From Occultella gossypii (GTDB lineage: Bacteria > Actinomycetota > Actinomycetes > Actinomycetales > Beutenbergiaceae), in the NCBI RefSeq assembly GCF_019947135.1, contig NZ_JAGSHT010000016.1:124001-188000 (forward strand): a stretch of DNA of 64,000 bases. Reading direction: 5' to 3'. Position 1 is the stretch's first letter. Every line of letters starts with the position of its first letter. Shown here one piece after another: positions 45,812 through 62,083 of the stretch. The notes beneath the pieces are model-generated. The model saw only the letters and a list, made by a program, of their open reading frames with translations, was not told where the DNA came from and did not search any database. The position numbers and the translations under genes are program-made.

Positions 45812-46635
45812 CAGTCCTTGATCCCACCCTCGGAGATCCCGGCCACCACGTACTTCTGCAGCAACACGAAGATGACGATGATCGGGATCGCGATGATCGT
45901 CGAGACGGCCATCAGGTTGGTCCACTGGGTGCCGAACTGCGCCACGAACCGGTTCAGCACCACGGTGATCGGCTGGATCGCGTCGCTGGTGGCCAGGGTC
46001 AGGCCGAACACGAACTCGCCCCAGGTCATCACGAACGTGAGGGTGGCGACCATGACCAGGCCGGGCTGGACCAGGGGTAGGCCGATCTTCCAGAACGCCC
46101 GGAAGCCGGTGCACCCGTCGAGCAGTCCGGCGTCCATCAGGTCCTGCGGGATCGCGAGCATGTACGGGCGCAGCATCACCACCGCGAACGGCAGCGCCAG
46201 GGAGGTGTTCGCGATGATCAGTCCGGCGTAGGTGTCCACGAGGCCGTAGTCGCTGAAGATCGCGAACATGGGCAGCGCGAGGCTGATCGTCGGCAGCATC
46301 TGCGCGGCGAGCATGAGCAGCATCACCACACCGTTGACGCGCAGGCTGAACCGGGCCAGCCCGTACGCGGCCGGGACCGCGAGCGCGAGGGTGAGCAGCA
46401 GCGTCGGGATGGTGATGATCGTGGAGGACCAGATGCCCTGCAGCACCGCGGAGTCGCCGAACACGGCGTCCCGATACGCGGCCAGGGTCGGTGGGGACGG
46501 CACCAGATCCGGCGGTGAGTTGAAGACGTCGCCGGTCTCCTTCAGGGACGTGGCCACCATCCAGTAGACCGGGATCAGGTAGACCACGGCGACGATCAGC
46601 CCGGTCACGGACAGGCCGACGGTGCGGGTCCTCAC
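45811..46635 (-). CDS. Carbohydrate ABC importer permease, MalG type
   Basis: Membrane subunit, 274 residues, six membrane segments. The EAA loop is shortened/divergent (MDAGLLDGCTGFRAFWKIGLPLV) with Gly-Leu-Leu in place of EAA-type residues. Ends AGISEGGIKD. GTG 46635 overlaps the partner stop (GTGA). Part of the operon binding protein-permease-permease-aldolase between 48836 and 44879. Confidence 0.91.
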   Translation of the reverse strand: MRTRTVGLSVTGLIVAVVYLIPVYWMVATSLKETGDVFNSPPDLVPSPPTLAAYRDAVFGDSAVLQGIWSSTIITIPTLLLTLALAVPAAYGLARFSLRVNGVVMLLMLAAQMLPTISLALPMFAIFSDYGLVDTYAGLIIANTSLALPFAVVMLRPYMLAIPQDLMDAGLLDGCTGFRAFWKIGLPLVQPGLVMVATLTFVMTWGEFVFGLTLATSDAIQPITVVLNRFVAQFGTQWTNLMAVSTIIAIPIIVIFVLLQKYVVAGISEGGIKD

Positions 46636-47567
46636 AGCACGTCCTCCTTCCGGGTCGCGCGGAAGTAGAACAGGGCGAGCACGGTCGGGATGACCAGCAT
46701 CAACGTGTTGATGGTCGCGCCGCTGCCGAGCTCGAAGTTCACGAACGCCTCGTTGTAGGCGAGGATCGGCAGCACCGTGGTGGCATCGCCGGGACCGCCC
46801 TTGGTCATGATGAAGATCGTGTCGAAGGTGCGGAACGTGTAGATGAACCCGAGCAGCGCGACCACCAGGGACACCGGGCGCAGCAGCGGCAGCGTGATCG
46901 CCCGGAACCGGGTGCCCGGGCCGGCGCCGTCCAGGCTCGCCGCCTCGTACAGGCCCTTCGGGATGTTCTGCAGCCCTGCGAGCAGGAGCAGCATCGCGAA
47001 CGGCGCCATCGTCCATGCGGTCGCGAGCACCACCGCGACCAGGGCGGAGTTGCCCCGGCCGAGCCAAAACACCGGGGCGTCGATGATCCCGACGGACATC
47101 AGGGCGTGGTTGACCAGCCCGTAGGAGCCGTCGAGGATCCACCGCCACACGTTCGCGGCCACCACCGACGGCAGGATGTAGGGCAGGAAGATCGCCGCCC
47201 GGACTGCGTTCCGCCCCACGAACTTCCGGTTGAAGAAGACCGCGAGCGCGAGCCCGATCACGTACATCAGCGCGATCGTGGCGACCGTGTAGATCAGCGA
47301 CACCCGCAGCCCGGTCCACAGTTCCGGGTTGCGCAGTTCCTCGGCGTAGTTCGCGAGCCCGACGAACTCGATGGTGCCGGCCAGGAACTTCTGGATCGGT
47401 GCGTCGTACAGGCTCAGGGAGATGTTGTAGTACAGCGGGTAGAGCGTGGTCGCGGCCACGAAGACGACGGCGGGGGCTATGTAGGCGTATCGGCTCCAGT
47501 GCCGTCGAGGTCGACGGCGGGTGGTCGCCCCGGCGGGCGCGCTCGCCGCGCGAACGGTGGTGCTCAT
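46632..47567 (-). CDS. Carbohydrate ABC importer permease, MalF/UgpA type
   Basis: Partner permease, 311 residues. Basic N-terminus (TTRRRPRRHWSRYAYIAPA), six membrane segments, EAA loop YEAASLDGAGPGTRFRAITLPLL. ATG 47567 lies 3 bases after the binding-protein stop. No ATPase in the operon. Confidence 0.92.
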   Translation of the reverse strand: MSTTVRAASAPAGATTRRRPRRHWSRYAYIAPAVVFVAATTLYPLYYNISLSLYDAPIQKFLAGTIEFVGLANYAEELRNPELWTGLRVSLIYTVATIALMYVIGLALAVFFNRKFVGRNAVRAAIFLPYILPSVVAANVWRWILDGSYGLVNHALMSVGIIDAPVFWLGRGNSALVAVVLATAWTMAPFAMLLLLAGLQNIPKGLYEAASLDGAGPGTRFRAITLPLLRPVSLVVALLGFIYTFRTFDTIFIMTKGGPGDATTVLPILAYNEAFVNFELGSGATINTLMLVIPTVLALFYFRATRKEDVL

Positions 47568-47570
47568 CGA

Positions 47571-48836
47571 TCAGGCCAGCGCCTCGTCCGCCGTGGCCTG
47601 CGCGGCCGCGAGCGCGTCGGCGGGCGTGCCGGACCCGGACAGGCTGACCTGGAGGGCGTTCTGGATCCCGGTGAAGATCTCCGCGGAGACCGGGGCGACC
47701 TCCTCGTCCGGGGCCCAGGCGACGTCCAGCTGGGAGATGAAGACCTGCCGGGTCTCGTCCGCCCAGATCTCGGCCTCGGCGGTGTCGGAGCGGACCGGGA
47801 GCTTGTTGCGCTCGGGCAGGTAGGAGTTCATCACGTCCGGCTGCTGCATCCAGGTGATCAGCTCCCACGCGGCGTCGGCGTTCGCGGAGTCCTTCGTGAT
47901 GGTGAGGTTCTCCGCGGACAGGAACGAGAACTGATCGACGTCCGAGGGCATCGGCACCACAGTGAAGTCGAGGTCGCCGGACTCGGCGAGCGAGGACAGG
48001 TAGGACGCACTGTTGATCATCATCGCGGCCGTGCCGTTCTGGAACTGGAGGGTCACGTCGTCCTCGTTCCAGGTCAGCACCCCTTCGGAGATCGCGCCGG
48101 CATCCTTCAGGCGCAGGAACGAGTCCATCGCGGCGAGCCCGGCATCGGAGTCGAGTTCGCGGATGTCGCCGCCGGCGGCGAGGAACCGCAGGATCCAGGC
48201 CGTCGAACCCTCGACACCCTCAATGCCGCAGAACACGAGCCCGAAGTTCTGGCCCTCGGTCACGGCGGCGGCCACGGCCTCGACCTCGGTCCAGGTGGTG
48301 GGTGCCTGCTGGCCGGCCGCCGCGAGGGTGGCGTTGTTGACCCAGAGGGAGTAGGTGTCGGCGACGTGCGGGACGGCGTAGGTGGCGCCGCCGAAGACGG
48401 TGGTGGCCATCGGCCCGGAGAAGTACTGGTCGCTCTCGCCCCACTCCTCCACCCGATCACTGAGGTCGACGATCATTCCGGAGTCGGCGAACAGGGCGGT
48501 GTCGAAGGCGTTCACGAGCGCGATGTCCGGCAGGTCGCCGGACGTAGCGGACTGGAGCAGGGTCCGGTTGAAGTCCCCGAACGGGATCAGCCGCGGGGTG
48601 ACCTCGACACCGGTCTCCTCGGTGTACTTGGCGAGCAGCGCCTCGATCGGTGCGGTGGCGCCGCCACCGTAGTAGTGCCAGAAGGTCAGGGCGCTGCCGT
48701 CCCCGGTCTGTTCGGCTTCTTCGCCGGCGTTGCCGCCGCCCGGGGTGCAGGCGGCGATCGCGCCGAGGCCGGCCGCGCCGAGGCCGCCGATCAGCAGGCG
48801 CCGGCGGGTGAGGTTGAGGTGATCGACGATGTTCAC
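47571..48836 (-). CDS. Sugar ABC importer substrate-binding lipoprotein (Tat)
   Basis: Extracellular binding protein, 421 residues. Twin-arginine motif TRRRLLIGGLG (11-17) and lipobox AIAAC with Cys30. Mature start LTFWHYYGGGATAPIEALL. GTG 48836 is preceded by AAAGGAG 5 bases upstream. Context with two keto-acid aldolases and an SDR suggests a sugar acid or amino sugar acid as ligand; this is inference. Confidence 0.92.
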   Translation of the reverse strand: MNIVDHLNLTRRRLLIGGLGAAGLGAIAACTPGGGNAGEEAEQTGDGSALTFWHYYGGGATAPIEALLAKYTEETGVEVTPRLIPFGDFNRTLLQSATSGDLPDIALVNAFDTALFADSGMIVDLSDRVEEWGESDQYFSGPMATTVFGGATYAVPHVADTYSLWVNNATLAAAGQQAPTTWTEVEAVAAAVTEGQNFGLVFCGIEGVEGSTAWILRFLAAGGDIRELDSDAGLAAMDSFLRLKDAGAISEGVLTWNEDDVTLQFQNGTAAMMINSASYLSSLAESGDLDFTVVPMPSDVDQFSFLSAENLTITKDSANADAAWELITWMQQPDVMNSYLPERNKLPVRSDTAEAEIWADETRQVFISQLDVAWAPDEEVAPVSAEIFTGIQNALQVSLSGSGTPADALAAAQATADEALA

Positions 48837-48880
48837 AACAGCTCCTTTGCATGGTGGCGGCAGCGAACTGCGCCGGTGAG

Positions 48881-49789
48881 TCAGTTTCCGGATGGGGTGA
48901 AGAGCTCGGGGTGCGCGGCGAACAGGGTGCGCACGCGCGCCACACCGTTCGCGTCGAGGTCGTGCAGGGGGTGGCGCGAGGGGCCCATGGCGAACCCTTG
49001 GAGGCGCAGCAGCTCGCGCAGCGTGGGCAGCACCCCGGTGGCGACGAGGTCGCGGACGTAGTTCGAGACGGTGATCTGGGTGGCCCGGGCGGAGTCGTAG
49101 TCGCCGCGGCGGAACTGCTCGAGCAGGCGGACGAACAGTTCCGGGGCGGCGTTGAACGTGGACCCGATCGCGCCGCAGGCGCCGGAGACGAAGCCGGCGA
49201 GGGCCACCTCGTCGTGCCCGTTCCAGACGGCCAGCCGGCCGTCGCCGATCCGGGCGAGCTGCTGCAGCCCGAACATGTCCAGGGAGGTGAACTTCACCCC
49301 GGTCACGTTCGGCTCCTCGGCGAGCGCGGCGAAGAACTCCACGCTGAGGTTCACCCCGGTGCGGCCGGGGAAGTTGTAGGCGACGAACGGCACGTCGCAG
49401 CCGCGGGCGACGGTGCGGAAGTAGTCCAGCTGCTCGGCCGGGGTGAGCGGGACGCTCGGCAGGATCGCCGAAACGGCGTCGACCCCGGCGGCCGCGGCCC
49501 GGTTCGCCAGGTCCAGCGTGAGCCGGGTCGCGTTCGTCCCGACGTGGGCGATCACCGGCACCTGCCCACCGGTCTCGGCGACGACAACCTCGATGCAGGC
49601 GAGCCGCTCCTGCGGGGACTGCATCACGCCGTCGCCGGTGCTGCCGCCGACGTAGAAGCCGGCCACGCCGCGCTCGAGCAGCGCCGCGGTGAGGCGACCC
49701 AGTTCGGGAAGGTTCGGTGCGCCGTCGTCCAGGTAGGGCGTAAGCAGTGCTGGCACGATGCCGTGCGCGCGCTCGAGTGGGTGAGTCAT
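48881..49789 (-). CDS. DHDPS/N-acetylneuraminate lyase-family aldolase
   Basis: Class I aldolase or dehydratase for a 2-keto-3-deoxy acid. 302 residues with family motifs GGSTGDGVMQS (substrate loop), Tyr138 (VAYNFPGRTG) and Schiff-base Lys166 (TGVKFTS). The YNFPGRTG block is closer to sialic-acid and keto-deoxy-acid lyases than to lysine-pathway synthase. First enzyme gene after the GntR regulator on the same strand and next to the importer, so it likely cleaves the imported substrate or its product. Confidence 0.9.
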   Translation of the reverse strand: MTHPLERAHGIVPALLTPYLDDGAPNLPELGRLTAALLERGVAGFYVGGSTGDGVMQSPQERLACIEVVVAETGGQVPVIAHVGTNATRLTLDLANRAAAAGVDAVSAILPSVPLTPAEQLDYFRTVARGCDVPFVAYNFPGRTGVNLSVEFFAALAEEPNVTGVKFTSLDMFGLQQLARIGDGRLAVWNGHDEVALAGFVSGACGAIGSTFNAAPELFVRLLEQFRRGDYDSARATQITVSNYVRDLVATGVLPTLRELLRLQGFAMGPSRHPLHDLDANGVARVRTLFAAHPELFTPSGN

Positions 49790-49858
49790 GAGTGGTGCGA
49801 TCCCCTCCTGGGATTTCTGTCCGGCCTCGACGCGGCCGGCGGGTGGTGATGCGGAGCG

Positions 49859-50536
49859 TCAGTCGGTGGGCCGCATGAGCCGGTCGAGCCGGTAGTCGAT
49901 GTCGACGAAGTGCTGGTCGAGCGCGGAGACGGCGTCGTCGCCCTGGCGCAGGGCGTCCACGATGGCGCGGTGCCGGTCCGCGAGGTCGTGGTACTGCAGC
50001 GGCGGGAGTTCGGCCTGCATGCGGGACATGAGCGTCCAGAACATGTCCAGGACGTCGAGGATGAGGTCATTGCCGATGGCCTCGTACATGGTGCGGTGGA
50101 ACAGTCGGTCCTGCTCCGGGAAGGCCAGGCCCTGCTCCTCGAGCTCGACCATCTCGTCCACGATCGCGTCCAGGCGGGCCAGGGTCTCCTCGGAGATCCG
50201 CGCGGCCACCTTCGGGATCAGGCCACGCTCAAGCGCCGCCCGCAGCTCCAGCAGCTCGTTGAGTTTCGCGCCGTTCGCGATCATCCGGTACGGCAGCAGC
50301 CGGATCACCGGGGAGAGGGAGAAGTCCTGCAGGAACAGGCCCTTGCCGGCCTTCGCGTAGAGCACCCCCATCGACTGCAGACTGCGGGTGGCCTCCCGCA
50401 GGGACCCGCGGCTGACGTCCAGCTGGACGGCGAGTTCCCCCTCGGAGGGCATCGGGTCATCAGGGCCAAGGCCCTGCTCGGTGATGTACTCCAGGAGCTG
50501 GGCCTGCACGGTTTCGAACAGCATCGGCTTCGACAC
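49859..50536 (-). CDS. GntR-family regulator, FadR/FCD type
   Basis: Repressor of this sugar-acid locus, 225 residues from GTG 50536. Winged helix (VQAQLLEYITEQGLGPDDPMPSEGELAVQLDVSRGSLREATRSLQSMG) and an FCD sensor domain with metal-binding acid/His positions (FHRTMYEAIGN, ADRHRAIVDAL). A TTG start at 50545 would fall inside the 30-bp operator; ATG 50524 is another option. It faces the SDR across that palindrome and can repress both directions. FCD ligands are usually carboxylic acids, which fits the locus. Confidence 0.88.
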   Translation of the reverse strand: MSKPMLFETVQAQLLEYITEQGLGPDDPMPSEGELAVQLDVSRGSLREATRSLQSMGVLYAKAGKGLFLQDFSLSPVIRLLPYRMIANGAKLNELLELRAALERGLIPKVAARISEETLARLDAIVDEMVELEEQGLAFPEQDRLFHRTMYEAIGNDLILDVLDMFWTLMSRMQAELPPLQYHDLADRHRAIVDALRQGDDAVSALDQHFVDIDYRLDRLMRPTD

Positions 50537-50540
50537 GTTC

Positions 50541-50570
50541 CGCAACCTATCAGATATCTGACAGGTTGCG
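50541..50570. promoter_or_regulatory. 30-bp near-perfect palindrome, FadR-type operator
   Basis: Outer arms CGCAACCT (50541-50548) and AGGTTGCG (50563-50570) flank the perfect core TCAGATATCTGA (50550-50561); only one base pair is off symmetry. It lies in the short gap between the divergent GntR and SDR genes, where a single dimer could control both. Confidence 0.7.
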
Positions 50571-50589
50571 ACAGCGGTACTTTCGACCC

Positions 50590-51369
50590 ATGACCGCCAG
50601 CGCCAGCAACCCGCCCCTGCCCCGCACCCTCGAGGGACGCCGGGTCATCGTCACCGGCGGTGGCGTCGGCATCGGGCTCGGCATCGTCCGGCGCTTCGCC
50701 GCCGCGGGCGCCCGCGTCGCGCTCACCACGCACTCCCGGTCCGCCGACGACGTCGTCGCGCAGCTCGCCGACGAGGGCCTCGACGTGCTCGGCCTGCGGT
50801 TCGACGCCACCGACAGCGAGCAGGTCACCGCCGCCGTCGACGTCCTCGCCGACCGCCTCGGCGGCCTAGATGTGGTCCTGAACAACTCCGGCGGGCTGCT
50901 CGCCCGCCACACGATCGCCGAGACCTCCGACGTCCACTGGGACGCCGTGTGGCGAGTGAACGTCTCCTCCGCCTTCTACGTCAGCCGCGCCGCCCTGCGC
51001 CACCTCGGCGAGGGCGGGCGCATCATCAACATCTCCTCCCTGGCCGGCTCCACCGGCGGCGGCAACGGCTCTGCCCCGTACGCCACCGCGAAGGCCGCCG
51101 TCGACGGCTTCACCCGCGCGCTGGCCAAGGAGGTCGGACCGCAGGGCATCACCGTCAACGCGATCGCCCCCGGACTGATCCTGGACACCCCGTTCCACGA
51201 GACGTTCACGGCACCAGCGGACCAGGAGAAGACGATCGCGTCGATCCCGGTGGGGCGGCCCGGGTATCCGGAAGACGTTGCCGCGGCGGCTGAGTACTTC
51301 GCGCGGGATGACTCGGCGTTCGTCACTGGGACCGTGCTGGACCTCAACGGTGGGGTGCACTTTTCATAG
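50590..51369 (+). CDS. SDR-family oxidoreductase
   Basis: Classical SDR, 259 residues: TGGGVGIGLG cofactor loop, NNSGG, catalytic Ser (NISSLAGS) and YATAK, C-terminal GTVLDLNGGVHFS. ATG 50590 is 20 bases past the operator and no strong ribosome site is seen, so it may be translated from a very short leader. Divergent from and probably controlled by the GntR regulator. Likely oxidises or reduces a sugar or sugar acid in the same pathway as the aldolases. Confidence 0.9.
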   Translation: MTASASNPPLPRTLEGRRVIVTGGGVGIGLGIVRRFAAAGARVALTTHSRSADDVVAQLADEGLDVLGLRFDATDSEQVTAAVDVLADRLGGLDVVLNNSGGLLARHTIAETSDVHWDAVWRVNVSSAFYVSRAALRHLGEGGRIINISSLAGSTGGGNGSAPYATAKAAVDGFTRALAKEVGPQGITVNAIAPGLILDTPFHETFTAPADQEKTIASIPVGRPGYPEDVAAAAEYFARDDSAFVTGTVLDLNGGVHFS

Positions 51370-51432
51370 TCGGCGGGCAATCAAGGGCCTCGACGAGCCA
51401 CCCGCGCTTCCGATTGCTGTGAGACTGACCGA

Positions 51433-54400
51433 GTGACGTCATCGCCCTTGCCCGACGATGGTGCGCTCGTTGAGGGAGCCTACGAGGAACTCATCACTGA
51501 GCGGCTTGCCGCCACGCTACGCAACCTTCCCGCCGATGATTGGGCTAGCGGTTCCGTACCTGACGGGGACCAACCCCACGTGCTCGCCGCCCACGTCGCG
51601 GAGGCAGTCCATCGCCGGTTGCGGGGAGTCAAAGACTCCGCCGAGCGCCTCGCATTGGTGAACCAGCTGCTCGATACCATTGATGACGGCGAGACGGTCC
51701 CGTCGGCTGAACGTCTGCTCGCTGTCGAGCGGCGACTCCCGACGCAACTCACGACGACCTCTCGTTTCGCTACCCGACCGCAGGCGCCCCTTTCGGAGGC
51801 AGCGCTCCTCACGAACGCGCATGGTGAACCATCGCTCCAGTCGGAGATCCTCGCGGAGATGCCAAGTGCAGATGAGGTCGATCTGCTGTGCGCCTTCGTG
51901 AAGTGGACCGGTGTCCGAACCTTGCGACCCGGACTCGCCTCCCTCCGAGATCGCGGTGTCCCGCTACGAATTGCCACGACGACGTACATGGGCGCCACGG
52001 AACGTGTGGCACTGGATCGCCTGGTCAGGGAAGTCGGCGCGCAGGTCAAGATCCAGTACGACGTCCAGCGGACACGACTGCACGCGAAGGCGTGGATGTT
52101 CCGCCGCCGTTCAGGCTTCTCGACGGCGTACGTTGGATCGTCGAACCTGTCTCACTCGGCTCTCCTCGACGGCGTCGAGTGGAATGTACGGCTCTCGCAG
52201 CGAGCCAACCGGGCGCTGCTAGCGAAGTTCGAGGCGACGTTCGACACCTACTGGGCGGACCCTACGTTCGAGGACTACCAGCCCGACGACGTCGAAGATC
52301 GCGACCGACTTGACGACGCGCTCGCTGAAGCCAGTGGCCGCTCGCAGCACACCCGAGTCACGTTTTCCATCTCTGGACTCGAGGTGCGGGCCTACCCATA
52401 CCAGCAGCGGATGCTCGACGAGATCGAGGCCGCACGCAAGGTGTACGGGCGGCACCGCAACCTGGTCGTGGCGGCCACAGGCACGGGCAAGACTGTCGTC
52501 GCAGCTTTGGATTACCGCCGACTTTCGGAGGAGGCGGGTCCAGGAGAGCACCCCCGGCTGCTCTTCGTTGCCCACCGCCGGGAAATCCTCCAACAATCAC
52601 TGCGCACGTTCCGCGAAGTGCTGACGGACCCTGAGTTCGGCGAGCTCTACGTCGATGGCAAACGCCCCGAGCGCTGGAAGCACGTGTTCGCCAGCATCCA
52701 GTCGCTGACCGCCTATGGCGTCGAGAACATTCCACCAGCGAGCTTCCGCGTCCTCATCGTGGACGAGTTCCACCACGCCGCCGCCAGCACGTACCAGAAG
52801 CTGCTTCGACACCTAACCCCAGACGAGACACTGGGACTGACCGCAACGCCCGAACGGGCCGACGGCGTGCACGTTGCGCGATTGTTCGGCGGGGCTCCAA
52901 CTACGGAACTGCGCCTCTGGGATGCAATCGCCTCAGATCTGCTCGCGCCATTCCACTACTTCGCCATCAACGACGAGACAGATCTGTCTCGGATCGCCTG
53001 GGCACGCGGCGCCTACGATGCCAGGTCGCTCAGCAACCTCTACACAGGCAACGACGCCCGGTCGCGGATCATCCTTAGCCAGTTGCGAGACAAGGTGGCT
53101 GACCTCGACGCGATGAAGGCACTCGGATTCTGCGTCGATGTTGGACATGCTCACGCGATGGCTGAAGCCTTCAACCAGGCTGGGATTCCGTCGCGCGCAG
53201 TCACCGGAGAGACTGCCCACGCGCACCGAGACGAGGCCCTGACGGACCTCCGCAGCGGCGCCACCAAAGTGATCTTTGCCGTAGACGTCTACAACGAGGG
53301 GGTCGACATACCGGACGTCAACACCGTGCTGTTCCTGCGCCCTACGGAGAGCGCGACCATATTCGTTCAGCAGCTCGGACGAGGCCTGCGGCGCACCCGA
53401 ACCAAGAGCGTCCTGACCGCGCTCGACTTCGTCGGGATCCAGCGCAAGGAGTTCCGGTGGGACCTCAAACTGGGAGCAATCACCGGACAGTCTCGCCGAG
53501 GGCTGATTGAGGGCATCGAGAAGGGCTTCACGACCCTGCCGAGCGGATGCCAGATTGTCCTGGAGCGCGAGTCGCAGCAACGAATCCTCGCAAACGTCAG
53601 AGACCAGGTCTCCCGCCGATGGTCTCGGCTCGTGAGTGAACTCCGGACACTGAGTGCGCAACGCGACCACGTATCCCTCGGCACATATCTACACGAGACG
53701 GGCAATGACCTTGGTGCGGTCATCGAGCGACCCGAGCGCTCCTGGACACGACTCCGACGTGAGGCGGGACTAGAGGTCCCGGTGGGTGGGCCACTTGAGG
53801 ACGTGTTGCTTCGCCGAGTCCGAGCGCTGGCCCACGTCGACGACTCCGAACGGACCGCCGCATACCTCGCCGTCCTGTCCGGCGCAGACTATGAATCACT
53901 TTCCCCAACGGAACGAGCGTTCGCCCGCATGCTGTTCTTCTCGCTCTACCCCGATGGCGGTGGGTTCGAGTCGTATGCCGATGGACTCACGGCGGCATCG
54001 CATGAGGCCGCAGCGAACCAAGAACTGATGACGGTGGTCGACCTCGCTCGTGCCACGCAGCTCCGACTGACAGTCGCATCCACGGGGTCCACGGCCGGCC
54101 TCCCGCTACGCCTGCACGCGCGCTACCAACGAGAGGAAGCGCTCGCCGCCCTGGGTTGGGCGAACCTGTCGCGCACCCCGAAGTCGTTCCAAGCTGGCGT
54201 CCTCCACGAATCCGAACAGAACCTCGACGCCCTCTTCGTGACCGTCGAGAAGTCCGAAGCTGCCTTCTCGCCGAGCACTATGTACCGCGACTACCCGATC
54301 TCTCGAACTCTCTTCCACTGGGAGTCGCAATCAACCACCTCCCTGCTGTCCCCCACGGGACAGCGCTACGTGGCCGGAAGCAGCACCGTCCTGCTCTTCG

Positions 54401-54564
54401 TGCGCGTCAGAGGTCATGGGCCCGTCGGCACAGAGCCATACACCTACCTCGGCCCGGTCGAGCTGGTCGCCCATCAGGGCGAACGGCCCATCGCGATCAC
54501 CTGGCGGCTCAACACACCGATGCCCCTCGAACTCTTTTCGTCAACGACCGCCGCTGCACCGTGA
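51433..54564 (+). CDS. PLD-nuclease/superfamily 2 helicase fusion (DUF3427-like), probable defence protein
   Basis: A 1043-residue protein joining a phospholipase-D-type nuclease to a DEAD/DEAH helicase. N-terminal PLD part (about 135-275): VDLLCAFVKWTG, then LHAKAWMF (His217, Lys219) and YVGSSNLS. Helicase (about 315-690): ATGTGKT (348-354), HRREIL, DEFHH (444-448), TATPERADG, and motif VI QQLGRGLRRTR. The C-terminal 350 residues include a DUF3427-like region (WESQSTTS, LLFVRV, YTYLGPVELV). GTG 51433 starts 63 bases after the SDR. Codon use is visibly less GC-biased than that of neighbours, suggesting transfer. Such proteins occur in restriction/defence islands, and a DUF262 nuclease gene follows. 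Confidence 0.85.
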   Translation: MTSSPLPDDGALVEGAYEELITERLAATLRNLPADDWASGSVPDGDQPHVLAAHVAEAVHRRLRGVKDSAERLALVNQLLDTIDDGETVPSAERLLAVERRLPTQLTTTSRFATRPQAPLSEAALLTNAHGEPSLQSEILAEMPSADEVDLLCAFVKWTGVRTLRPGLASLRDRGVPLRIATTTYMGATERVALDRLVREVGAQVKIQYDVQRTRLHAKAWMFRRRSGFSTAYVGSSNLSHSALLDGVEWNVRLSQRANRALLAKFEATFDTYWADPTFEDYQPDDVEDRDRLDDALAEASGRSQHTRVTFSISGLEVRAYPYQQRMLDEIEAARKVYGRHRNLVVAATGTGKTVVAALDYRRLSEEAGPGEHPRLLFVAHRREILQQSLRTFREVLTDPEFGELYVDGKRPERWKHVFASIQSLTAYGVENIPPASFRVLIVDEFHHAAASTYQKLLRHLTPDETLGLTATPERADGVHVARLFGGAPTTELRLWDAIASDLLAPFHYFAINDETDLSRIAWARGAYDARSLSNLYTGNDARSRIILSQLRDKVADLDAMKALGFCVDVGHAHAMAEAFNQAGIPSRAVTGETAHAHRDEALTDLRSGATKVIFAVDVYNEGVDIPDVNTVLFLRPTESATIFVQQLGRGLRRTRTKSVLTALDFVGIQRKEFRWDLKLGAITGQSRRGLIEGIEKGFTTLPSGCQIVLERESQQRILANVRDQVSRRWSRLVSELRTLSAQRDHVSLGTYLHETGNDLGAVIERPERSWTRLRREAGLEVPVGGPLEDVLLRRVRALAHVDDSERTAAYLAVLSGADYESLSPTERAFARMLFFSLYPDGGGFESYADGLTAASHEAAANQELMTVVDLARATQLRLTVASTGSTAGLPLRLHARYQREEALAALGWANLSRTPKSFQAGVLHESEQNLDALFVTVEKSEAAFSPSTMYRDYPISRTLFHWESQSTTSLLSPTGQRYVAGSSTVLLFVRVRGHGPVGTEPYTYLGPVELVAHQGERPIAITWRLNTPMPLELFSSTTAAAP

Positions 54565-55014
54565 CGCCACCCCTATCGTTGTGCGCCCTCGAAGCTTCCC
54601 GGAACCGCTACACCGTTGGCAATTTCCGACAAGCTACCGGGGCACCGTTGGCTCGCGGGTAGCCAGCCACCCACTCCTCCGCCGATGTCCCGCCCTGGCC
54701 ACACGGCGAGGTCTCCCGCTTTGAGGACGACGCGGTTCGTGGTTGACGGCCTGTCGCGTAGGTGGTCACGGCCCTTCCTTCGAGGGTAATTAATGTCGGT
54801 CGGGCCTCGAGGCACGCGCGCGGCCAACCGGTGAGGCAACTCACGCGGTTTCGAGCCGCATCCCTGGCGAGACTGATCCACTAGCTTGAGCGCGAACCGA
54901 GTTCCCCGACGCGACTCCACACGAGCCTGGGCGGGTCGCGGAAAATGGCAGCCGAACGGGAAGAACCGAATAAGCTTGGGGTCCGCACTCGGCTCGCCGG
55001 AGCTGGAGTAGCGA
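54565..55014. other. 450-bp gap between the two defence-type genes
   Basis: No gene was accepted here. Minus-strand frames of 78-115 codons (54573-54920, 54608-54844) lack ribosome sites and known motifs. The stretch is more AT-rich than most gaps (GGGTAATTAATG near 54785) and may hold the promoter of the DUF262 gene, so the two genes need not be one transcript. No tRNA or att-like repeat was recognised. Confidence 0.4.
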
Positions 55015-56778
55015 GTGAGACGGAGACTCTACGTGCCCCAAGACGATTTTCTCAAGTACGAAGCCTCAGGGATCGCCGCACTGCTACGCACCCGAACGCT
55101 CGCAGTTCCGTTCTACCAGCGTTCCTATTCATGGATCACGAAGGAAGGTAGCACCTACACCCCCGACTCAGAGGTAGACAAGCTTCAGGTGATCGACTTC
55201 TGGAGTGATCTGACCTCGAGCTTCGCGAACAATTTTTCGTACTTCATGGGGACCGTCGTCCTTGCACGAGAGGGCGACGGGGCCGATGGCCGTCAACTCG
55301 TGATCGATGGCCAACAGCGCCTAGCCACGACGTCGCTCCTGCTGGCTGCGATTCGCGACAAATTCGAGACAGGCGGCGCGAACGACTTCGCGAAATCGAC
55401 CCAACAGGACTATCTCGGAAAGTTCGATCGCAGAGTTGGACTCGATCAGCCTAAGCTCATATTGAACACCGAGGACCGGGACTTCTATGAGCGTCGAATC
55501 GTCTTGGGTCGGAGCGACGTCGAGCCAGCAAACTACAGTCAAGGGCTCATCTCCGAGGCATTTGAGTATCTCTCCGAGAGGGTTGAAAATTTCACGGCGA
55601 GCCACGGCACCGCTTGGCGCGACAAGTTGAATGAGCTCGTGGACTGGCTTGACACGAGCGCACAAATCGTCGCCATCGATGTGGCAACCGAGGCCGATGC
55701 CTTCCTCATCTTCGAAACGCTAAATGATCGCGGCGCCGACCTGACCGTCGCCGATCTTCTCAAGAACTTCCTGTTCAGCCGCTCTGCGTCGAGACTCGAC
55801 GAGGTTCGTGACAACTGGGTGGCAACACTGACGAACCTCGATATCAACCGGGTCGGCAACCAGCGCTTTACGAACTTTGCGCGCCACCTTCTCAGCTCTA
55901 AGTACGGTCGGACGCGCGAGCGTGAGGTCTATGGCCGATTGAAGGACATCGTCGCTTCGCCCGCCTCCGCAGTGACGTTCTCCCAAGAGCTCAAGGACTC
56001 GTCTCGGCTCTACTACGCCATGCTTACTGCTGATAGCGATTTCTGGGGCGACTACCCAGCGCATGTGTCGAGCGCCGCAGAGATCTTGGTTGAGCTCAAT
56101 CTTGAACAATACCGCCCGCTCCTGCTTGCAGCCTTGTCCGAATTCGATCACGGCGAGATCGTTAGATTCGTGCCCACGATGGTCTCATGGGCAATTCGCG
56201 GACTCTCATCGGGAACGCTCGGCGCAGGCACCGCCGAGGCTGCTTTCTGTGAGGCGGCTCGAGACATCCGGTCGGGCAAGATCAAGACCACCGAACAAAT
56301 CCTGGCAGAGTCTCGCGTAGGGACTCTGATACCAACCGACGGGGCGTTCGAAGCAGCGTTCGCTGGATGGCGCGTCATGCGTGGGTCACTCGCAAGATAC
56401 CTGCTTCGAGCGCTCGAATTACAGGAGCGCGGCGATGCGGAGCCGGAGCTAGTCGTCAACGACGACGTCGAAGCCGTCAATCTGGAGCATGTCCTTCCGA
56501 AGAACGCGAAGCGTGACGACTGGCCAGCGTTCACAGAGGATGATCAGCGAGCGTACGTCCATCGCTTAGGGAACCTCTGCCTGTTGCAGAAGGGCCCGAA
56601 CGGGCGAATCGGCAACAAACCGTGGGCGGCCAAGCAGTCGATACTTAAGCTATCGAGTCTTCGCGTGACGGCTGATGCGGCCGCGAACTCAAATTGGACG
56701 AAGAGCGTCATCGATAGGCGCCAAAAGCAGTTGGCAACCCTGGCCGTCTCAGCTTGGCCGCGTCTGCCTCGTGGGTAG
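55015..56778 (+). CDS. DUF262-DUF1524 protein, GmrSD-like restriction nuclease
   Basis: 587-residue protein with the two halves of GmrSD/type IV restriction enzymes in one chain. N-terminal DUF262 (ParB/Srx-like NTPase): VPFYQRSYSW (31-40) and IDGQQRLATTSLLL (97-110); further FETLNDRGADLTVADLLKNFLF. C-terminal DUF1524 HNH-type nuclease: NLEHVLPKN with His492, then HRLGNLCLLQKGPNGRIGNKPWAAK. All key residues are present. Family members cut DNA with modified bases, often phage DNA. GTG 55015 starts 450 bases after the PLD-helicase gene. AT-richer codons (ATA, TTA, AAT) point to recent acquisition. Confidence 0.87.
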   Translation: MRRRLYVPQDDFLKYEASGIAALLRTRTLAVPFYQRSYSWITKEGSTYTPDSEVDKLQVIDFWSDLTSSFANNFSYFMGTVVLAREGDGADGRQLVIDGQQRLATTSLLLAAIRDKFETGGANDFAKSTQQDYLGKFDRRVGLDQPKLILNTEDRDFYERRIVLGRSDVEPANYSQGLISEAFEYLSERVENFTASHGTAWRDKLNELVDWLDTSAQIVAIDVATEADAFLIFETLNDRGADLTVADLLKNFLFSRSASRLDEVRDNWVATLTNLDINRVGNQRFTNFARHLLSSKYGRTREREVYGRLKDIVASPASAVTFSQELKDSSRLYYAMLTADSDFWGDYPAHVSSAAEILVELNLEQYRPLLLAALSEFDHGEIVRFVPTMVSWAIRGLSSGTLGAGTAEAAFCEAARDIRSGKIKTTEQILAESRVGTLIPTDGAFEAAFAGWRVMRGSLARYLLRALELQERGDAEPELVVNDDVEAVNLEHVLPKNAKRDDWPAFTEDDQRAYVHRLGNLCLLQKGPNGRIGNKPWAAKQSILKLSSLRVTADAAANSNWTKSVIDRRQKQLATLAVSAWPRLPRG

Positions 56779-57013
56779 GTTAGGGGCTTCCGGGTCGGGG
56801 TCGGGGTCGTGTGCGCACCACCGCGCCCGGCGCCGTTGTCAAGCCTCACGTCACGCGCTCCGAACGAACCGTAGCGTGAGCCGCAAACCCGAGGATCCCT
56901 GGCGATGCGGACGAGGCTCGTGAGGGTCCCACTGAACCCTGACACCCCTAGATCGTCGTGTTTAGGACCTTGACCACAATCAGCAAGCGGCACAGGACCG
57001 TCATCCTGGGAGT

Positions 57014-57676
57014 TCAATGCAACAGGCCCGCACGCTCCGCCAGCACCGCCACGTCCACCCGGTTCCTGGCGCCCAACTTCGTCTGCGCCGCGGACAGGTG
57101 CGACTTCACCGTCGCCTCGGACACGTACAATTGCCGGGCGATCTGGACGTTCGAGTGCCCGTGTCCCACGGCGATGGCGACATCTCGTTCCCGTTCGCTC
57201 AAGGACGACATCGCGTCCGTTGCTCGTCGCCGCTCGGCGCCGCCGATATCCCGGGCCAGGTGGTCGAGCACCTGTCGGGTGCTGCGCGGGGACAGCACGG
57301 CGTCGCCGGCCATCACGTCCCGCACGGCGCGGATGATGTCCATCGGCGGGGCGGACTTGAGCAAGAACCCAGCGGCGCCAGCGGCGAGGCTGCGCAGCAC
57401 GGCGTCGTCCACGTCCCAGGTGGTCAGGACGATGACGTGTGGCGGGTTGGGCAGGGCACGGGCGGCCGCGGTGGCGGCAATGCCGTCCATCCGGGTCATC
57501 CGCAGGTCCATGAGCACCACGTCCGGGGCGTGCGCCTGGACGGCTTGCACCACCTCGTCGCCGTCGCCGGCCTCGCCGACCACCTCGATGTCGGCCGCGC
57601 TGTCCAGGATCAGGCGCAGCCCGGTGCGCACCAGAGCGTCGTCATCCACGAGGAGCACTCGGTGCGGTCGGGGCAT
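57014..57676 (-). CDS. Orphan NarL/LuxR-type response regulator
   Basis: Response regulator of 220 residues without a kinase next to it. Receiver: LLVDDDALVRTGL, phosphoacceptor Asp57 (VLMDLRMTRMDG), VLTTWD, LLKSAPP; LuxR helix-turn-helix SLSERERDVAIAVGHGHSNVQIARQLYVSEATVKSHLS. ATG 57676 is the first family-like start; the frame open to 57919 reads shadow sequence. Its kinase gene may have been lost or lies elsewhere. It is 70 bases downstream of the FAH/aldehyde dehydrogenase operon on the same strand but need not be part of it. Confidence 0.9.
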   Translation of the reverse strand: MPRPHRVLLVDDDALVRTGLRLILDSAADIEVVGEAGDGDEVVQAVQAHAPDVVLMDLRMTRMDGIAATAAARALPNPPHVIVLTTWDVDDAVLRSLAAGAAGFLLKSAPPMDIIRAVRDVMAGDAVLSPRSTRQVLDHLARDIGGAERRRATDAMSSLSERERDVAIAVGHGHSNVQIARQLYVSEATVKSHLSAAQTKLGARNRVDVAVLAERAGLLH

Positions 57677-57746
57677 GGCCCCAACGTAGGCGCCCGCACC
57701 GACAGACGGTGCGCAGACGGGCTTGGGTGACCTCCGCCGTCGCCGG

Positions 57747-58928
57747 CTAATGCCCGCCTGAAAGCGAGCGGTGCAGGTACTCCACGAGCGATCGGATCCC
57801 GAACTCCCAGCGGGCCAGGGAGTCCGTCGGCGCGACCTCGTTGGCCAGGGTGCCCAGGTGGGTGCTGGCGATGGTGACGCGGTCGCCGATCTTATGGGTG
57901 AAGCCCAGCCCGGGCACACCCCGGTCCTGGGTGGGGGCGAACAGGGTGCCCGTGTAGAGGGCGAAGCCGTCCGGGTACTGGTGGTGGTCGCCGCTGGTGG
58001 CCTCGACCAGTCGTTCGAAGGACCGGCTCAGGCGGGCGACGTTGTTCTCGTCCTCGAGCACGTAGCCGTCCTCGGCGCCCTCCACCCGCAGCGTGATCCG
58101 CTCAGTCCGGACGGTGTCCAAGGTGAAGGCGTTGTCGAACAACCGGATGAACGGACCGATCGCACTGGAGGCGTTGTTGTCCTTGGCCATGCCGAGAAGC
58201 AGGGCGCTGCGGCCCTCCACGTCGCGCAAGTTCACGTCGTTGCCCAGCGCGCATCCGCGGACCCGGCCGCGGGAGTCGACGACGAGCACCAGCTCCGGCT
58301 CCGGGTTGTTCCAGGAGGAGAAGGCCGGGATGCCGACCTGGGCGCCGTAGCCGACCGAGGAGAGCACCGGGGCCTTGGTGAAGACCTCCGGGTCCGGGCC
58401 GAGGCCGACCTCCAGGTACTGCGACCACAGGCCCTCGGCGAGGAAGACCTCCTTCACCCGCGCGGCGGCCTCGGAGCCGGGCTCGATGGTGTCGATCTCG
58501 GCGTGCAGGGAGGCGGCGAGGGTCTCGCGGACCTGACGCGCGCGGGCCGGGTCACCGGCGCTGCGTTCCTCGATGACGCGCTCGATCATGCTGTCGACGA
58601 AGGTCACGCCGCAGGCCTTGACCACCTGCAGGTCCAGCGGGGCGAGCAGGTGCGGGCGGTCCTGCGCCCGAGCGAGGGACGCCTCGACGAGGTCGGAGAG
58701 CCGCCAGCGCGGGTCGCCGGTGGTGCCGGTCACTACGGCTGCGGCGTCATCGCGCTCGAGCAGGCCGGCGACGGTCGGGGCCACGTCGAAAAGGTCGTAG
58801 ACGGCTTCGCCGAGGACCCGGACCGGCCGGGGTCCGCCGGTCTCGGGGTCCCAGACCCGGCCGACGAGGATCGCCTCGTCGGCGTCGGTGGGGAGGATCG
58901 CGTGCACGGCGTCGGTCTGGGTGCTCAT
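57747..58928 (-). CDS. Fumarylacetoacetate-hydrolase-family protein, likely 2-keto-3-deoxy-pentonate dehydratase
   Basis: 393-residue FAH-superfamily enzyme. Metal ligands NPEPELVLVVD (Glu210, Glu212) and GNDVNLRD (Asp231) with the FAH lid region AKAPVLSSVGYGAQVG. Coupled by ATGA to a 2,5-dioxovalerate (alpha-ketoglutarate semialdehyde) dehydrogenase upstream. Known FAH-family 2-keto-3-deoxy-D-arabinonate dehydratases precede that same dehydrogenase in oxidative pentose pathways, which makes this role the best fit: loss of water from a 2-keto-3-deoxy-pentonate to give 2,5-dioxovalerate. Simple hydrolase function cannot be excluded from sequence. ATG 58928 has AGGAG 4 bases upstream. Confidence 0.82.
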   Translation of the reverse strand: MSTQTDAVHAILPTDADEAILVGRVWDPETGGPRPVRVLGEAVYDLFDVAPTVAGLLERDDAAAVVTGTTGDPRWRLSDLVEASLARAQDRPHLLAPLDLQVVKACGVTFVDSMIERVIEERSAGDPARARQVRETLAASLHAEIDTIEPGSEAAARVKEVFLAEGLWSQYLEVGLGPDPEVFTKAPVLSSVGYGAQVGIPAFSSWNNPEPELVLVVDSRGRVRGCALGNDVNLRDVEGRSALLLGMAKDNNASSAIGPFIRLFDNAFTLDTVRTERITLRVEGAEDGYVLEDENNVARLSRSFERLVEATSGDHHQYPDGFALYTGTLFAPTQDRGVPGLGFTHKIGDRVTIASTHLGTLANEVAPTDSLARWEFGIRSLVEYLHRSLSGGH

Positions 58929-60382
58929 TTCGCTCCTCGTTCGGAGATCTGCCATTCGCCGTCGACTCGGCGGGAGATCGCCAAGGGGTTGTCCTCGCGC
59001 AGGGCTGCGTGCAACGAAGCTTCGGGGAAGCCCTGGTAGGACACCGGGCGCATGAACCGGCGCGCTGCCGCGGTTCCGACCGAGGTGGTGCCGGGCGCCG
59101 TCGTGGCCGGGAAGGGGCCGCCGTGCTGCTGGGCGTAACTGACGGTGACGCCGGTGGGCCAGGAGTTCCAGATCACGCGTCCCGAGCGTGCGGCCAGGAC
59201 GTCCACCAGCTCGTCGAGTTGCTCGCCGGGTTCGGCATGAACGGTGGTGGTCAGCTGGCCCTCGAGGAGTTCGACGCCCCGCGTGAGCTCGGCCTCGTCC
59301 CGGTAGGAGATGACGATGCTGGCCGGTCCGAACATCTCCTCGCGCACGATGGCCGGATCCTGCACGGCTGCCTCGACGGTGGTGGCGAAGAGTGCGGGCG
59401 CGGGTGCGTCACCTTGCCCGCCGGGGACGATCTCGGTCAGGCCGCGCTGGGCCATGGCCGAGCGGGCGTGGAGGAATCCCTCGGCCAGGCCTGTGGTGAG
59501 CATGGGCGACGGGTCGCTGCCGGCCACGGTCTCGCGGAGCACCTGGGTGCTGTCCTCGTCGAGCTGGGGCACGAACAGAATCCCGGGCTTCGTGCAGAAC
59601 TGCCCCATGCCCAGGGTGTAGGAACCGACGTAGGCGGTGAGGATCTCGTCGCGCCGCGCGGCCCAGGCCTGCTGGGTGACGACCACGGGGTTGATGCTGC
59701 CCAGCTCGCCGTAGAACGGGATCGGCTCGGGGCGGGCGGCCGCACGGTCGGCGAGGATGCGGCCCACCCGGGTGGATCCGGTGAAACCCACCGCCGTGGT
59801 GAGCGGGTGGTCCACGAGCGCCTGGCCCGCATCCCGGCCGGTGACGGCGCTGAAGAGGCCCGCGGGCGCACCCGCTTGCGCGAGCGCGGCCACGACGATC
59901 TCCGCCGTGCGGAGCCCGAGCTGCAGGTGGGCCTCGTGGATCTTGTGGACCACGGCGCAGCCGGCAGCCAGCGCCGAGGCGCTGTCGCCACCCATGACGG
60001 AGAACGCGAACGGGAAGTTGGAGGCGCCGAAGACCCCGACGACGCCGAGGGGGACGTTCATCCGGCGCAGGTCCGGCCGAGGTCCCATGCCCCAGGAGTC
60101 GTCGGCATGGTCGATCGTGGCGTCGAGGATCTCGCCGCGGCGGACCTCTTCGGCGAAGAGGCGCAACTGGAACGTGGTCCGCTTCAACTCCCCCTGCAGG
60201 CGCCCTTCGGCCAGGTGGGTCTCCGCCTGGGCCAGCGGGACGAGGTCCTCGGCGGCGGCGTCCAGGCCGTCCGCGATGGCCTCCAGCCAGCCTGCTCGGG
60301 TGTCCGGTTCGGCCCCACGTGCTGCGAGGAATGCCACCTGTGCCTGCTGGACTGCCTCGTCCAGTTCGTCATTGGTCGTCAT
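58925..60382 (-). CDS. 2,5-dioxovalerate (alpha-ketoglutarate semialdehyde) dehydrogenase-like aldehyde dehydrogenase
   Basis: NAD(P)-dependent aldehyde dehydrogenase, 485 residues. Motifs: GASNFPFAFSV (119-129), Lys147 (VVHKIHEAH), GFTGSTRVGR, general-base Glu226 in YGELGSINPV and catalytic Cys263 in GMGQFCTKPG, the signature of the KGSA dehydrogenase branch. Converts 2,5-dioxovalerate to 2-oxoglutarate, the last step of Weimberg-type pentose and sugar-acid routes. First gene of the two-gene operon, coupled to the FAH-family dehydratase. No regulator in the same operon. Confidence 0.88.
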   Translation of the reverse strand: MTTNDELDEAVQQAQVAFLAARGAEPDTRAGWLEAIADGLDAAAEDLVPLAQAETHLAEGRLQGELKRTTFQLRLFAEEVRRGEILDATIDHADDSWGMGPRPDLRRMNVPLGVVGVFGASNFPFAFSVMGGDSASALAAGCAVVHKIHEAHLQLGLRTAEIVVAALAQAGAPAGLFSAVTGRDAGQALVDHPLTTAVGFTGSTRVGRILADRAAARPEPIPFYGELGSINPVVVTQQAWAARRDEILTAYVGSYTLGMGQFCTKPGILFVPQLDEDSTQVLRETVAGSDPSPMLTTGLAEGFLHARSAMAQRGLTEIVPGGQGDAPAPALFATTVEAAVQDPAIVREEMFGPASIVISYRDEAELTRGVELLEGQLTTTVHAEPGEQLDELVDVLAARSGRVIWNSWPTGVTVSYAQQHGGPFPATTAPGTTSVGTAAARRFMRPVSYQGFPEASLHAALREDNPLAISRRVDGEWQISERGAK

Positions 60383-60516
60383 ACGGCAAGCCTACGGTCC
60401 GGCGCCAGTCGCGGACCGCGACGACCACCACGTGGCCCCCTTCGATGGTGCGACAGATGGTGAGCAGAGACCGGGCTACATTGGGCGGTCGGACCGGACA
60501 TTTGGAGGACTGATCC

Positions 60517-61228: not shown

Positions 61229-62083
61229 ATGGCAAATTTACTTGACGGTAAGGTAGCGATCATCACGGGCGGCGCCAGCGGCATCGGCCAGGCGAGCGTC
61301 GAGGCCTTCGTCGACCACGGCGCAAAGGTGATCATCGGCGACATCCAAGACGAGCTGGGCGAGTCGCTTGCGAAGAAGCTGGGTGACTCGGCCCGATACG
61401 TCCACGCTGACGTCACCAATGAGGACGACGTCGCCGGCCTCGTGGATGCAGCGGTGGAGTCCTACGGCAAGCTCGACGTGATGTTCAACAACGCCGGCGC
61501 ACCGTCCGCTCCGTCGCCCATCGTGGACGTCAGCACTGAGTACCTCGACAAGGCCCTCGCACTGTTCGTCCGCTCTGTGGTTCTCGGCCACAAGTACGCC
61601 GCACGCCAGTTCAAGAAGCAAGCCACCGGTGGGTCCATCATCTCCACCTCCAGCCTGGCTGGTCTGCAAGGCGGGTGGGGCGACGTTGGCTACTCCACCG
61701 CCAAGGCCGCCGTACCAAGCATCGCCCGAGTGGCGACCATCGAGCTCGGCAAGTTCGGGATCCGATCCAACGTCATCGCCCCCGGCATCATTGTGACGCC
61801 GATCTTCACCCGCTACGCGGGGCTGAGCGAGGAGGACTCCGGGAAGTTCCTCGAGCGGCTGGAGGAGAAGTCTAAGGACGAGCAGCCCCTGGGCCGGACT
61901 GGTGTCCCGAATGACATCGCCGGCCCCGCGGTGTTCCTCGCCTCCGACTTGTCCTCGTTCATCAGTGGCGTGACCATCCCTGTCGACGGCGGTTCGTCCT
62001 CGGTGACGTTCAACCGCTTCGATGCGATTTTCGGTGAGGTCGCAGCTGAGATGGAGGCCGGCTGGGTCTCCGCCCGCAGTTGA
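61229..62083 (+). CDS. SDR-family oxidoreductase
   Basis: Classical SDR, 284 residues: TGGASGIG cofactor loop, Asp-Ile-Gln after beta-2 (NAD preference), NNAG, catalytic STSSLAG and YSTAK, and VDGGSSSV near the end. The ATG has GAGAGGAAG upstream and the gene is followed by a compact hairpin, so it is probably monocistronic. Substrate unknown. Confidence 0.9.
   Translation: MANLLDGKVAIITGGASGIGQASVEAFVDHGAKVIIGDIQDELGESLAKKLGDSARYVHADVTNEDDVAGLVDAAVESYGKLDVMFNNAGAPSAPSPIVDVSTEYLDKALALFVRSVVLGHKYAARQFKKQATGGSIISTSSLAGLQGGWGDVGYSTAKAAVPSIARVATIELGKFGIRSNVIAPGIIVTPIFTRYAGLSEEDSGKFLERLEEKSKDEQPLGRTGVPNDIAGPAVFLASDLSSFISGVTIPVDGGSSSVTFNRFDAIFGEVAAEMEAGWVSARS

Follow-up and report, generated by a model that had tools for sequence, protein, structure and literature searches.

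Two restriction-type genes in Occultella gossypii

We analyzed two adjoining genes in 64,000 nucleotides of Occultella gossypii (contig NZ_JAGSHT010000016.1, positions 124,001 to 188,000; "the window," whose own numbering is used below). The first encodes P1, which joins a phospholipase D (PLD)-type nuclease to a superfamily 2 (SF2) helicase and a DUF3427-like tail; the second encodes P2, a GmrSD-like protein with DUF262 and DUF1524 domains (Table 1). A preliminary description had recognized these two large open reading frames (ORFs) side by side on one strand, with intact catalytic motifs and no methylase beside them, and had proposed that the pair is one candidate defense system. We confirmed the coordinates and the intactness of both genes, and a defense setting and a restriction-type domain reading are supported for each protein. 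The pairing as one unit did not hold up: P1 and P2 are most probably two independent Type IV restriction enzymes that share a defense hotspot, neighbors rather than one machine. Both are of known kinds, their inheritance is apparently separate, and, judging from their sequences, they probably destroy chemically modified foreign DNA.

Table 1. Features of the P1-P2 locus (window coordinates)
Feature	Position	Strand	Basis
SDR oxidoreductase gene, left border of variable site	50566..51369	+	Relative in 4/4 Occultella genomes (interrupted at this site in G009); synteny
P1, predicted SauUSI-type modification-dependent (Type IV) restriction enzyme, 1043 aa, GTG start	51433..54564	+	PADLOC mREase_IV PDLC03659; best PDB match 7clg
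P1 PLD-type nuclease domain, residues 164-274	51922..52254	+	PLDc_2 9.2e-9; conserved catalytic residues
P1 SF2 ATPase/translocase, ResIII residues 319-475, Helicase_C 562-653	52387..53391	+	Pfam; conserved motifs
P1 DUF3427/predicted SRA-like modified-cytosine reading domain, residues 890-1036	54100..54540	+	DUF3427 5.7e-19; AlphaFold model; Foldseek
P1-P2 gap, 450 bp	54565..55014	.	O. aeris homology ends with P1 (54560)
P2, single-chain GmrSD-like (HEC-06) DUF262-DUF1524 protein, 587 aa, predicted GTG start	55015..56778	+	Pfam; PADLOC HEC-06
Response-regulator gene, right border	57014..57919	-	Among the three other genomes, strongly matched by protein in G009 only; DNA remnant in G008
FAA-hydrolase and aldehyde-dehydrogenase genes, right flank	57747..60382	-	Alignment found with each of the other three Occultella genomes

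P1 resembles the restriction enzyme SauUSI

Pfam recovered all of the domains that had been read in P1 (PLDc_2, ResIII, Helicase_C, and DUF3427), and the catalytic motifs are strongly conserved. In an alignment of 55 homologs (53 from genomes of the same class, the window, and the sister species Occultella aeris), the PLD residues H217, N238, and E249 are present in every sequence and K219 in 54 of them. The Walker A motif TGTGKT, residue K353, and the motif VI residues Q646, Q647, G649, and R650 are also found in all 55 homologs, and the motifs DE-HH, TATPER, and GRGLR are conserved. P1 therefore has the features expected of a SauUSI-type enzyme, namely the catalytic His, Lys, Asn, and Glu of the PLD nuclease, motifs Walker A, II, III, and VI of the SF2 ATPase, and a C-terminal DUF3427 domain whose fold is predicted to be SRA-like.

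Residues 110 to 1039 of P1 match positions 11 to 940 (of 945) of PADLOC's mREase_IV profile PDLC03659 with 1021.9 bits; this profile is a model of predicted proteins, and membership is a matter of sequence likeness. The best sequence match in PDB is 7clg, the SauUSI crystal structure (E = 7.1e-74, residues 125 to 690). We modeled residues 715 to 1043 with AlphaFold from six sequences (the window and loci L007 to L011), which gave a mean predicted local distance difference test (pLDDT) score of 67.1 and a predicted template modeling score of 0.52. When Foldseek was run with the C-terminal third of P1, SauUSI (7clg) was again the top match (1.8e-7), followed by the SRA proteins SUVH6 (3.2e-4) and SUVH5 (9e-3); AbaSI, MspJI, LpnPI, and PvuRts1I matched more weakly, with E-values from 6e-3 to 0.2.

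SauUSI is described as having the domain order PLDc_2, P-loop NTPase, DUF3427 (PMC3874153), and the account of its structure reports an SRA-like reader, dimerization via the nuclease domains, ATP-driven translocation, and shredding of the DNA between target sites (PMC7913695). As described in these two papers, SauUSI shares with P1 a single chain with a PLD nuclease, an SF2 ATPase, and a C-terminal DUF3427/SRA reader (predicted in P1), and the lack of a methyltransferase partner. P1 differs in having about 95 extra residues ahead of the part that aligns to SauUSI. Overall, the architecture argues strongly that P1 is of the SauUSI type, and 5-methylcytosine (m5C) is supported as its putative substrate. 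An enzyme of this type would be expected to cut S-m5C-NGS DNA in an ATP-dependent manner. Sco2863 of Streptomyces coelicolor, which is listed as restricting m5C-containing DNA in vivo (Table 1 of PMC3874153), may be a relative of P1.

C5 methyltransferases are rarer in genomes with P1

If P1 attacks DNA that contains m5C, then its hosts would be expected to avoid C5 methyltransferases. The window's genome fits this expectation: not only is there no methylase beside the pair, but a genome-wide search for C5 methyltransferases of family PF00145 did not find any.

We then compared 394 genomes of the class, of which 59 have a match to P1 at 1e-60. In 54 of these, including the window's, the match spans roughly 89% or more of P1; the five with partial matches (G072, G088, G218, G366, and G375) were scored as lacking P1. 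PF00145 was identified at 1e-10 in 203 of the 394 genomes. By raw genome counts, it is rarer in the genomes with near full-length P1 (19 of 54) than in the others (184 of 340; one-sided Fisher test, 0.007), and at a threshold of 1e-40 the difference is larger (8 of 54 versus 131 of 340; 0.0003). Within genus g45, PF00145 is present in 6 of 18 genomes with P1 and in 20 of 21 others (5e-5). Membership in g45 was taken from listings, so any g45 genome that lacks P1, GmrSD_C, and PF00145 alike would go uncounted; adding 5 such genomes raises the P value to 0.005, and adding 10 raises it to 0.035.

The same pattern is seen on a small scale in Occultella: O. gossypii (G000) and O. aeris (G008) have P1 without PF00145, G009 has neither, and G010, which lacks P1, is the only one of the four genomes with PF00145, and its PF00145 gene sits in the P1 site. 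We view the depletion of PF00145 as a genome-scale hint that P1-type enzymes police cytosine methylation.

P2 resembles single-chain GmrSD proteins

The GmrSD-like identity of P2 was confirmed by Pfam, with matches to GmrSD_N (2.3e-28) and to GmrSD_C (4e-22, over 2-137 of 138). Its motifs are also intact: the NTPase motif DGQQR is at residues 98 to 102, and the HNH motif EHxxP is present within LEHVLP (E491-H492-V-L-P). PADLOC's HEC-06 is the best match (520.1 bits, residues 13 to 582), followed by its "Orf5" models (491.2 bits). A match over nearly the whole length suggests that P2 is similar to HEC-06, a single-gene GmrSD-like defense protein, which is described as acting independently (PMC11411939); HECs, HEC-06 among them, are reported to show antiviral activity in assays (PMC12988326). 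BrxU/Eco94GmrSD, set beside P2 by its description only (PMC8565348), is likewise a single chain with DUF262 and DUF1524, DGQQR, and a D/E-H-x-x-P motif. A single-sequence structure model of P2 was unusable (mean pLDDT 32.7).

The preliminary description could not name the pairing. Each half does have a name (SauUSI-type Type IV enzyme and HEC-06/GmrSD-like protein), and the relatives of each are described as single-protein actors. The pairing itself was not found among the papers listed by literature searches on SauUSI with GmrSD, on DUF3427 with phospholipase D and helicase, on HEC-06, or on SCO2863 or Occultella restriction, which does not prove that it is absent from the literature.

We also considered whether P2 might be a DndI-like nuclease that senses phosphorothioates instead of a cutter of DNA with modified cytosine. 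The best PDB match of P2 is 9jfl (1.6e-12), which is DndI (PMC11662687) and has the same two domains. At 1e-40, relatives of P2 are present in just 2 of the 393 other genomes of the class, and the closer one, in G330 (L143, G330:C99; 44% identity, or 41.7% in another comparison), abuts a complete dndABCDE cluster, with each gene scoring above its NCBIfam cutoff. However, the setting of P2 is different: a search of the window's genome for dndC (TIGR03183, the only dnd gene searched for there) was negative, which makes it unlikely that P2 acts together with Dnd modification in that genome. DndI is described as working with IscS-DndBCDE and as damaging cells that lack phosphorothioation (PMC11662687). 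Furthermore, the second relative, in G288 (L144, G288:C23; 42%), is a few genes away from a pair of similar, adjoining genes, of which one appears in the PF00145 list, and that genome has no match to dndC. A DndI-like role for P2 is therefore quite unlikely. Across the 394 genomes, the closest relatives of P2 adjoin dndABCDE or lie near C5 methyltransferases, not near P1.

As a separate observation, the arrangement in G330 resembles that of DndBCDE-DndI, in an actinobacterium.

P1 and P2 are apparently inherited separately

O. aeris bears on whether P1 and P2 form one unit. Its DNA aligns to window positions 46611 to 51369 at 94.6% identity and to 57416 to 60415 at 92.3%, and it has P1 at the same site (90% identity for DNA and 93% for protein). 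Window positions 54561 to 57023, which contain P2, do not align, and the homology breaks at the stop codon of P1. A focused comparison of part of this segment with O. aeris found only the end of P1, a remnant of the response regulator, and matches of 15 to 17 bases. No relative of P2 was found in the O. aeris genome at 1e-30.

Four of the 55 P1 loci have a GmrSD-type gene next to P1: the window, L095 (G245), L126 (G320), and L122 (G151). In all four, it is 3' of the SauUSI-type gene. In L126, one 242-codon ORF was called between the two genes, and in L122, the GmrSD-type gene is convergent to P1 and only its GmrSD_C domain is seen, as the contig ends. In a fifth locus, L104 (G152), a GmrSD-type gene is found 5' of P1, at a distance of 4.7 kb. 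A six-frame search of the P1 loci found no further GmrSD-type neighbors, which leaves 51 of the 55 without one beside P1. Genes in the fetched loci were called by a simple ORF script, and several loci end at contig ends, so the counts of adjacency are lower bounds.

The five GmrSD-type proteins near P1 are just 22-29% identical to each other. Two of them have extra C-terminal domains, which are perhaps further modification readers: DNA_binding_1 and DUF4268 in L126 (11678-14206) and RAMA in L104 (15350-17491). Given the low identity and the differing extra domains, these sequences make a single ancestral P1-GmrSD pair unlikely.

These results bear on the proposal of a single two-gene system, in which P1 would be a translocase acting with the P2 nuclease. 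The genes are neighbors on the same strand, and the P1 subclade that includes the window has four tips, three of which (the window, L095, and L104, but not O. aeris) have a GmrSD-type gene within 5 kb. Also, GmrSD_C is found within 3.5 kb of P1 in 3 of the 53 other genomes of the class with P1, versus 0.14 expected (P = 4e-4) if the 117 GmrSD_C matches in those genomes were placed at random. The 3.5-kb distance was chosen after the cases were known; at 8 kb, four genomes match (G152 is added) and 0.31 are expected. However, P1 occurs without P2 at the same site in O. aeris, conserved adjacency of orthologous partners was not seen across the 55 loci, the partners that do occur are dissimilar and in two loci differ in orientation or side, and the 450-bp gap argues against translational coupling. 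The synteny with O. aeris and the P1 neighborhoods led us to set aside a single system as very improbable. The excess demonstrates co-location rather than a system, because defense genes cluster generally and the neighborhoods of GmrSD genes are described as rich in restriction genes (PMC4619093).

We also looked for another conserved partner of P1. The commonest clusters of neighbors, found at 15, 12, and 11 of the 55 loci, come from family f26 in 14 of 15, 11 of 12, and 11 of 11 cases, respectively. Representatives, one scanned from each cluster, are an HTH/DUF5753 regulator, a histidine-kinase-like ATPase, and a protein with a SEC-C motif only. We take these clusters to be the ordinary synteny of f26.

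A variable site in Occultella

Between the flanking SDR gene and the FAA-hydrolase and aldehyde-dehydrogenase genes, the DNA differs among the four Occultella genomes. The window's cargo is P1 and P2. The cargo of O. aeris is about 12 kb of apparent sugar-catabolism genes (as read from their translations), a second and broken SDR copy, and then P1. G010 (L056:10558-18065) has a C5 methyltransferase along with GmrSD_N, Z1, and DUF4420 proteins, that is, a methylase-linked cluster with a DUF262 protein. G009 has an HNH_2 protein, an N6_N4 methylase, an integrase-core protein, and a GmrSD_N protein, and its SDR gene is interrupted by a stretch of other DNA about 1.3 kb long (L059:2396-3752; G009:C18, about 442400-443750). 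All four genomes have restriction-type genes at this site, and three of the four have a GmrSD_N protein. By analogy, its behavior is like that of immigration control regions, which have been described in other bacteria (PMC12707154), and defense genes appear to turn over there.

Two side observations concern the SDR genes. In O. aeris (L047/L048, G008:C17:43960-57656), SDR copies about 12 kb apart bracket the sugar-type insert beside P1; the second copy is partial, with one internal stop codon. Recombination between these copies may have shaped the site in O. aeris. In G009, the same contig has another SDR copy farther on, which is uninterrupted.

Codon use in the pair had been described as less GC-biased than in the genes around it. 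Both GC content and GC at third codon positions (GC3) are indeed below those of the immediate flanks: 0.641 and 0.750 for P1 and 0.583 and 0.696 for P2, versus 0.707-0.715 and 0.887-0.933 for the flanking SDR, FAA-hydrolase, and aldehyde-dehydrogenase genes. The total GC of P1 is not unique within the window, as another SDR gene (61229-62083) also has 0.641, with a GC3 of 0.835.

We did not find the ends of a mobile element. None of the repeats listed for positions 50400 to 57700 (20 of the 38 direct families and 25 of the 34 inverted pairs) flank the genes convincingly, and a scan for promoters and terminators gave hits at chance level only. The P1 patterns had no match in viral contigs, and three stretches there matched a P2 pattern, none of which encodes a relative. 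Plasmid records matched P1 in 11 cases (1e-60) and P2 in 9 (1e-30), with none in common.

Interpretation

On the model of SauUSI, P1 would recognize modified cytosine (m5C or 5-hydroxymethylcytosine, hm5C) in incoming DNA through the SRA-like domain at its C terminus, this recognition would switch on translocation by the SF2 ATPase, and the DNA would be cut by N-terminal PLD nuclease domains that come together in a dimer. If P2 works like a single-chain GmrSD, BrxU, or HEC-06, its DUF262 domain would sense a DNA modification and hydrolyze nucleoside triphosphate, which would license cutting or nicking by the DUF1524 HNH domain. P2 might act on modified cytosine or on a different modification, for example phosphorothioate.

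Several points weigh against two independent Type IV enzymes of these kinds. P1 is far from SauUSI by sequence (252 bits, and 14% identity across the fold-aligned tail), and the model of its tail is of only moderate quality (pLDDT 67.1). Outside genus g45, the difference in PF00145 is weak (13 of 36 genomes with P1 versus 164 of 319 others, P = 0.058), and with PF00145 in 19 of the 54 P1 genomes, the exclusion is not absolute; these tests ignore relatedness and use PF00145 as the sole methyltransferase family. Finally, adjacency of P1 and GmrSD-type genes is about 20-fold over random placement, which could mean a functional link.

One such link would be a loose, complementary two-layer module, in which P1 and P2 would cover different ranges of modified bases, having been paired repeatedly and independently in the same islands, with no physical interaction. 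The adjacency is enriched even though the GmrSD-type proteins are dissimilar, complementary layers are described for BREX with BrxU (PMC8565348) and for TgvAB inside a Type I locus (PMC11411939), and GmrSD_N proteins recur at the Occultella site. However, with defense genes clustering generally, random placement is too easy a null, and GmrSD neighborhoods are already described as restriction-rich (PMC4619093). We consider such a module unlikely. It is unlikely, too, that selection favors pairs of SauUSI-type and GmrSD-type enzymes, assembled repeatedly and independently without a fixed operon, as a defense in two layers against phages whose cytosines are modified, where one layer would read m5C/hm5C and the other would read sugar-modified or otherwise modified bases. 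With P1 and P2 as independent neighbors, the surprise is restricted to the repeated proximity of dissimilar GmrSD-type proteins to P1.

Overall, these results group an actinobacterial family, near full-length in 54 of the 394 class genomes sampled, with SauUSI, down to a predicted SRA reader, and they mark a site of apparent defense-gene turnover in Occultella. If P1-type enzymes do police cytosine methylation, they would also, in practice, hamper the transformation of such bacteria with methylated DNA.

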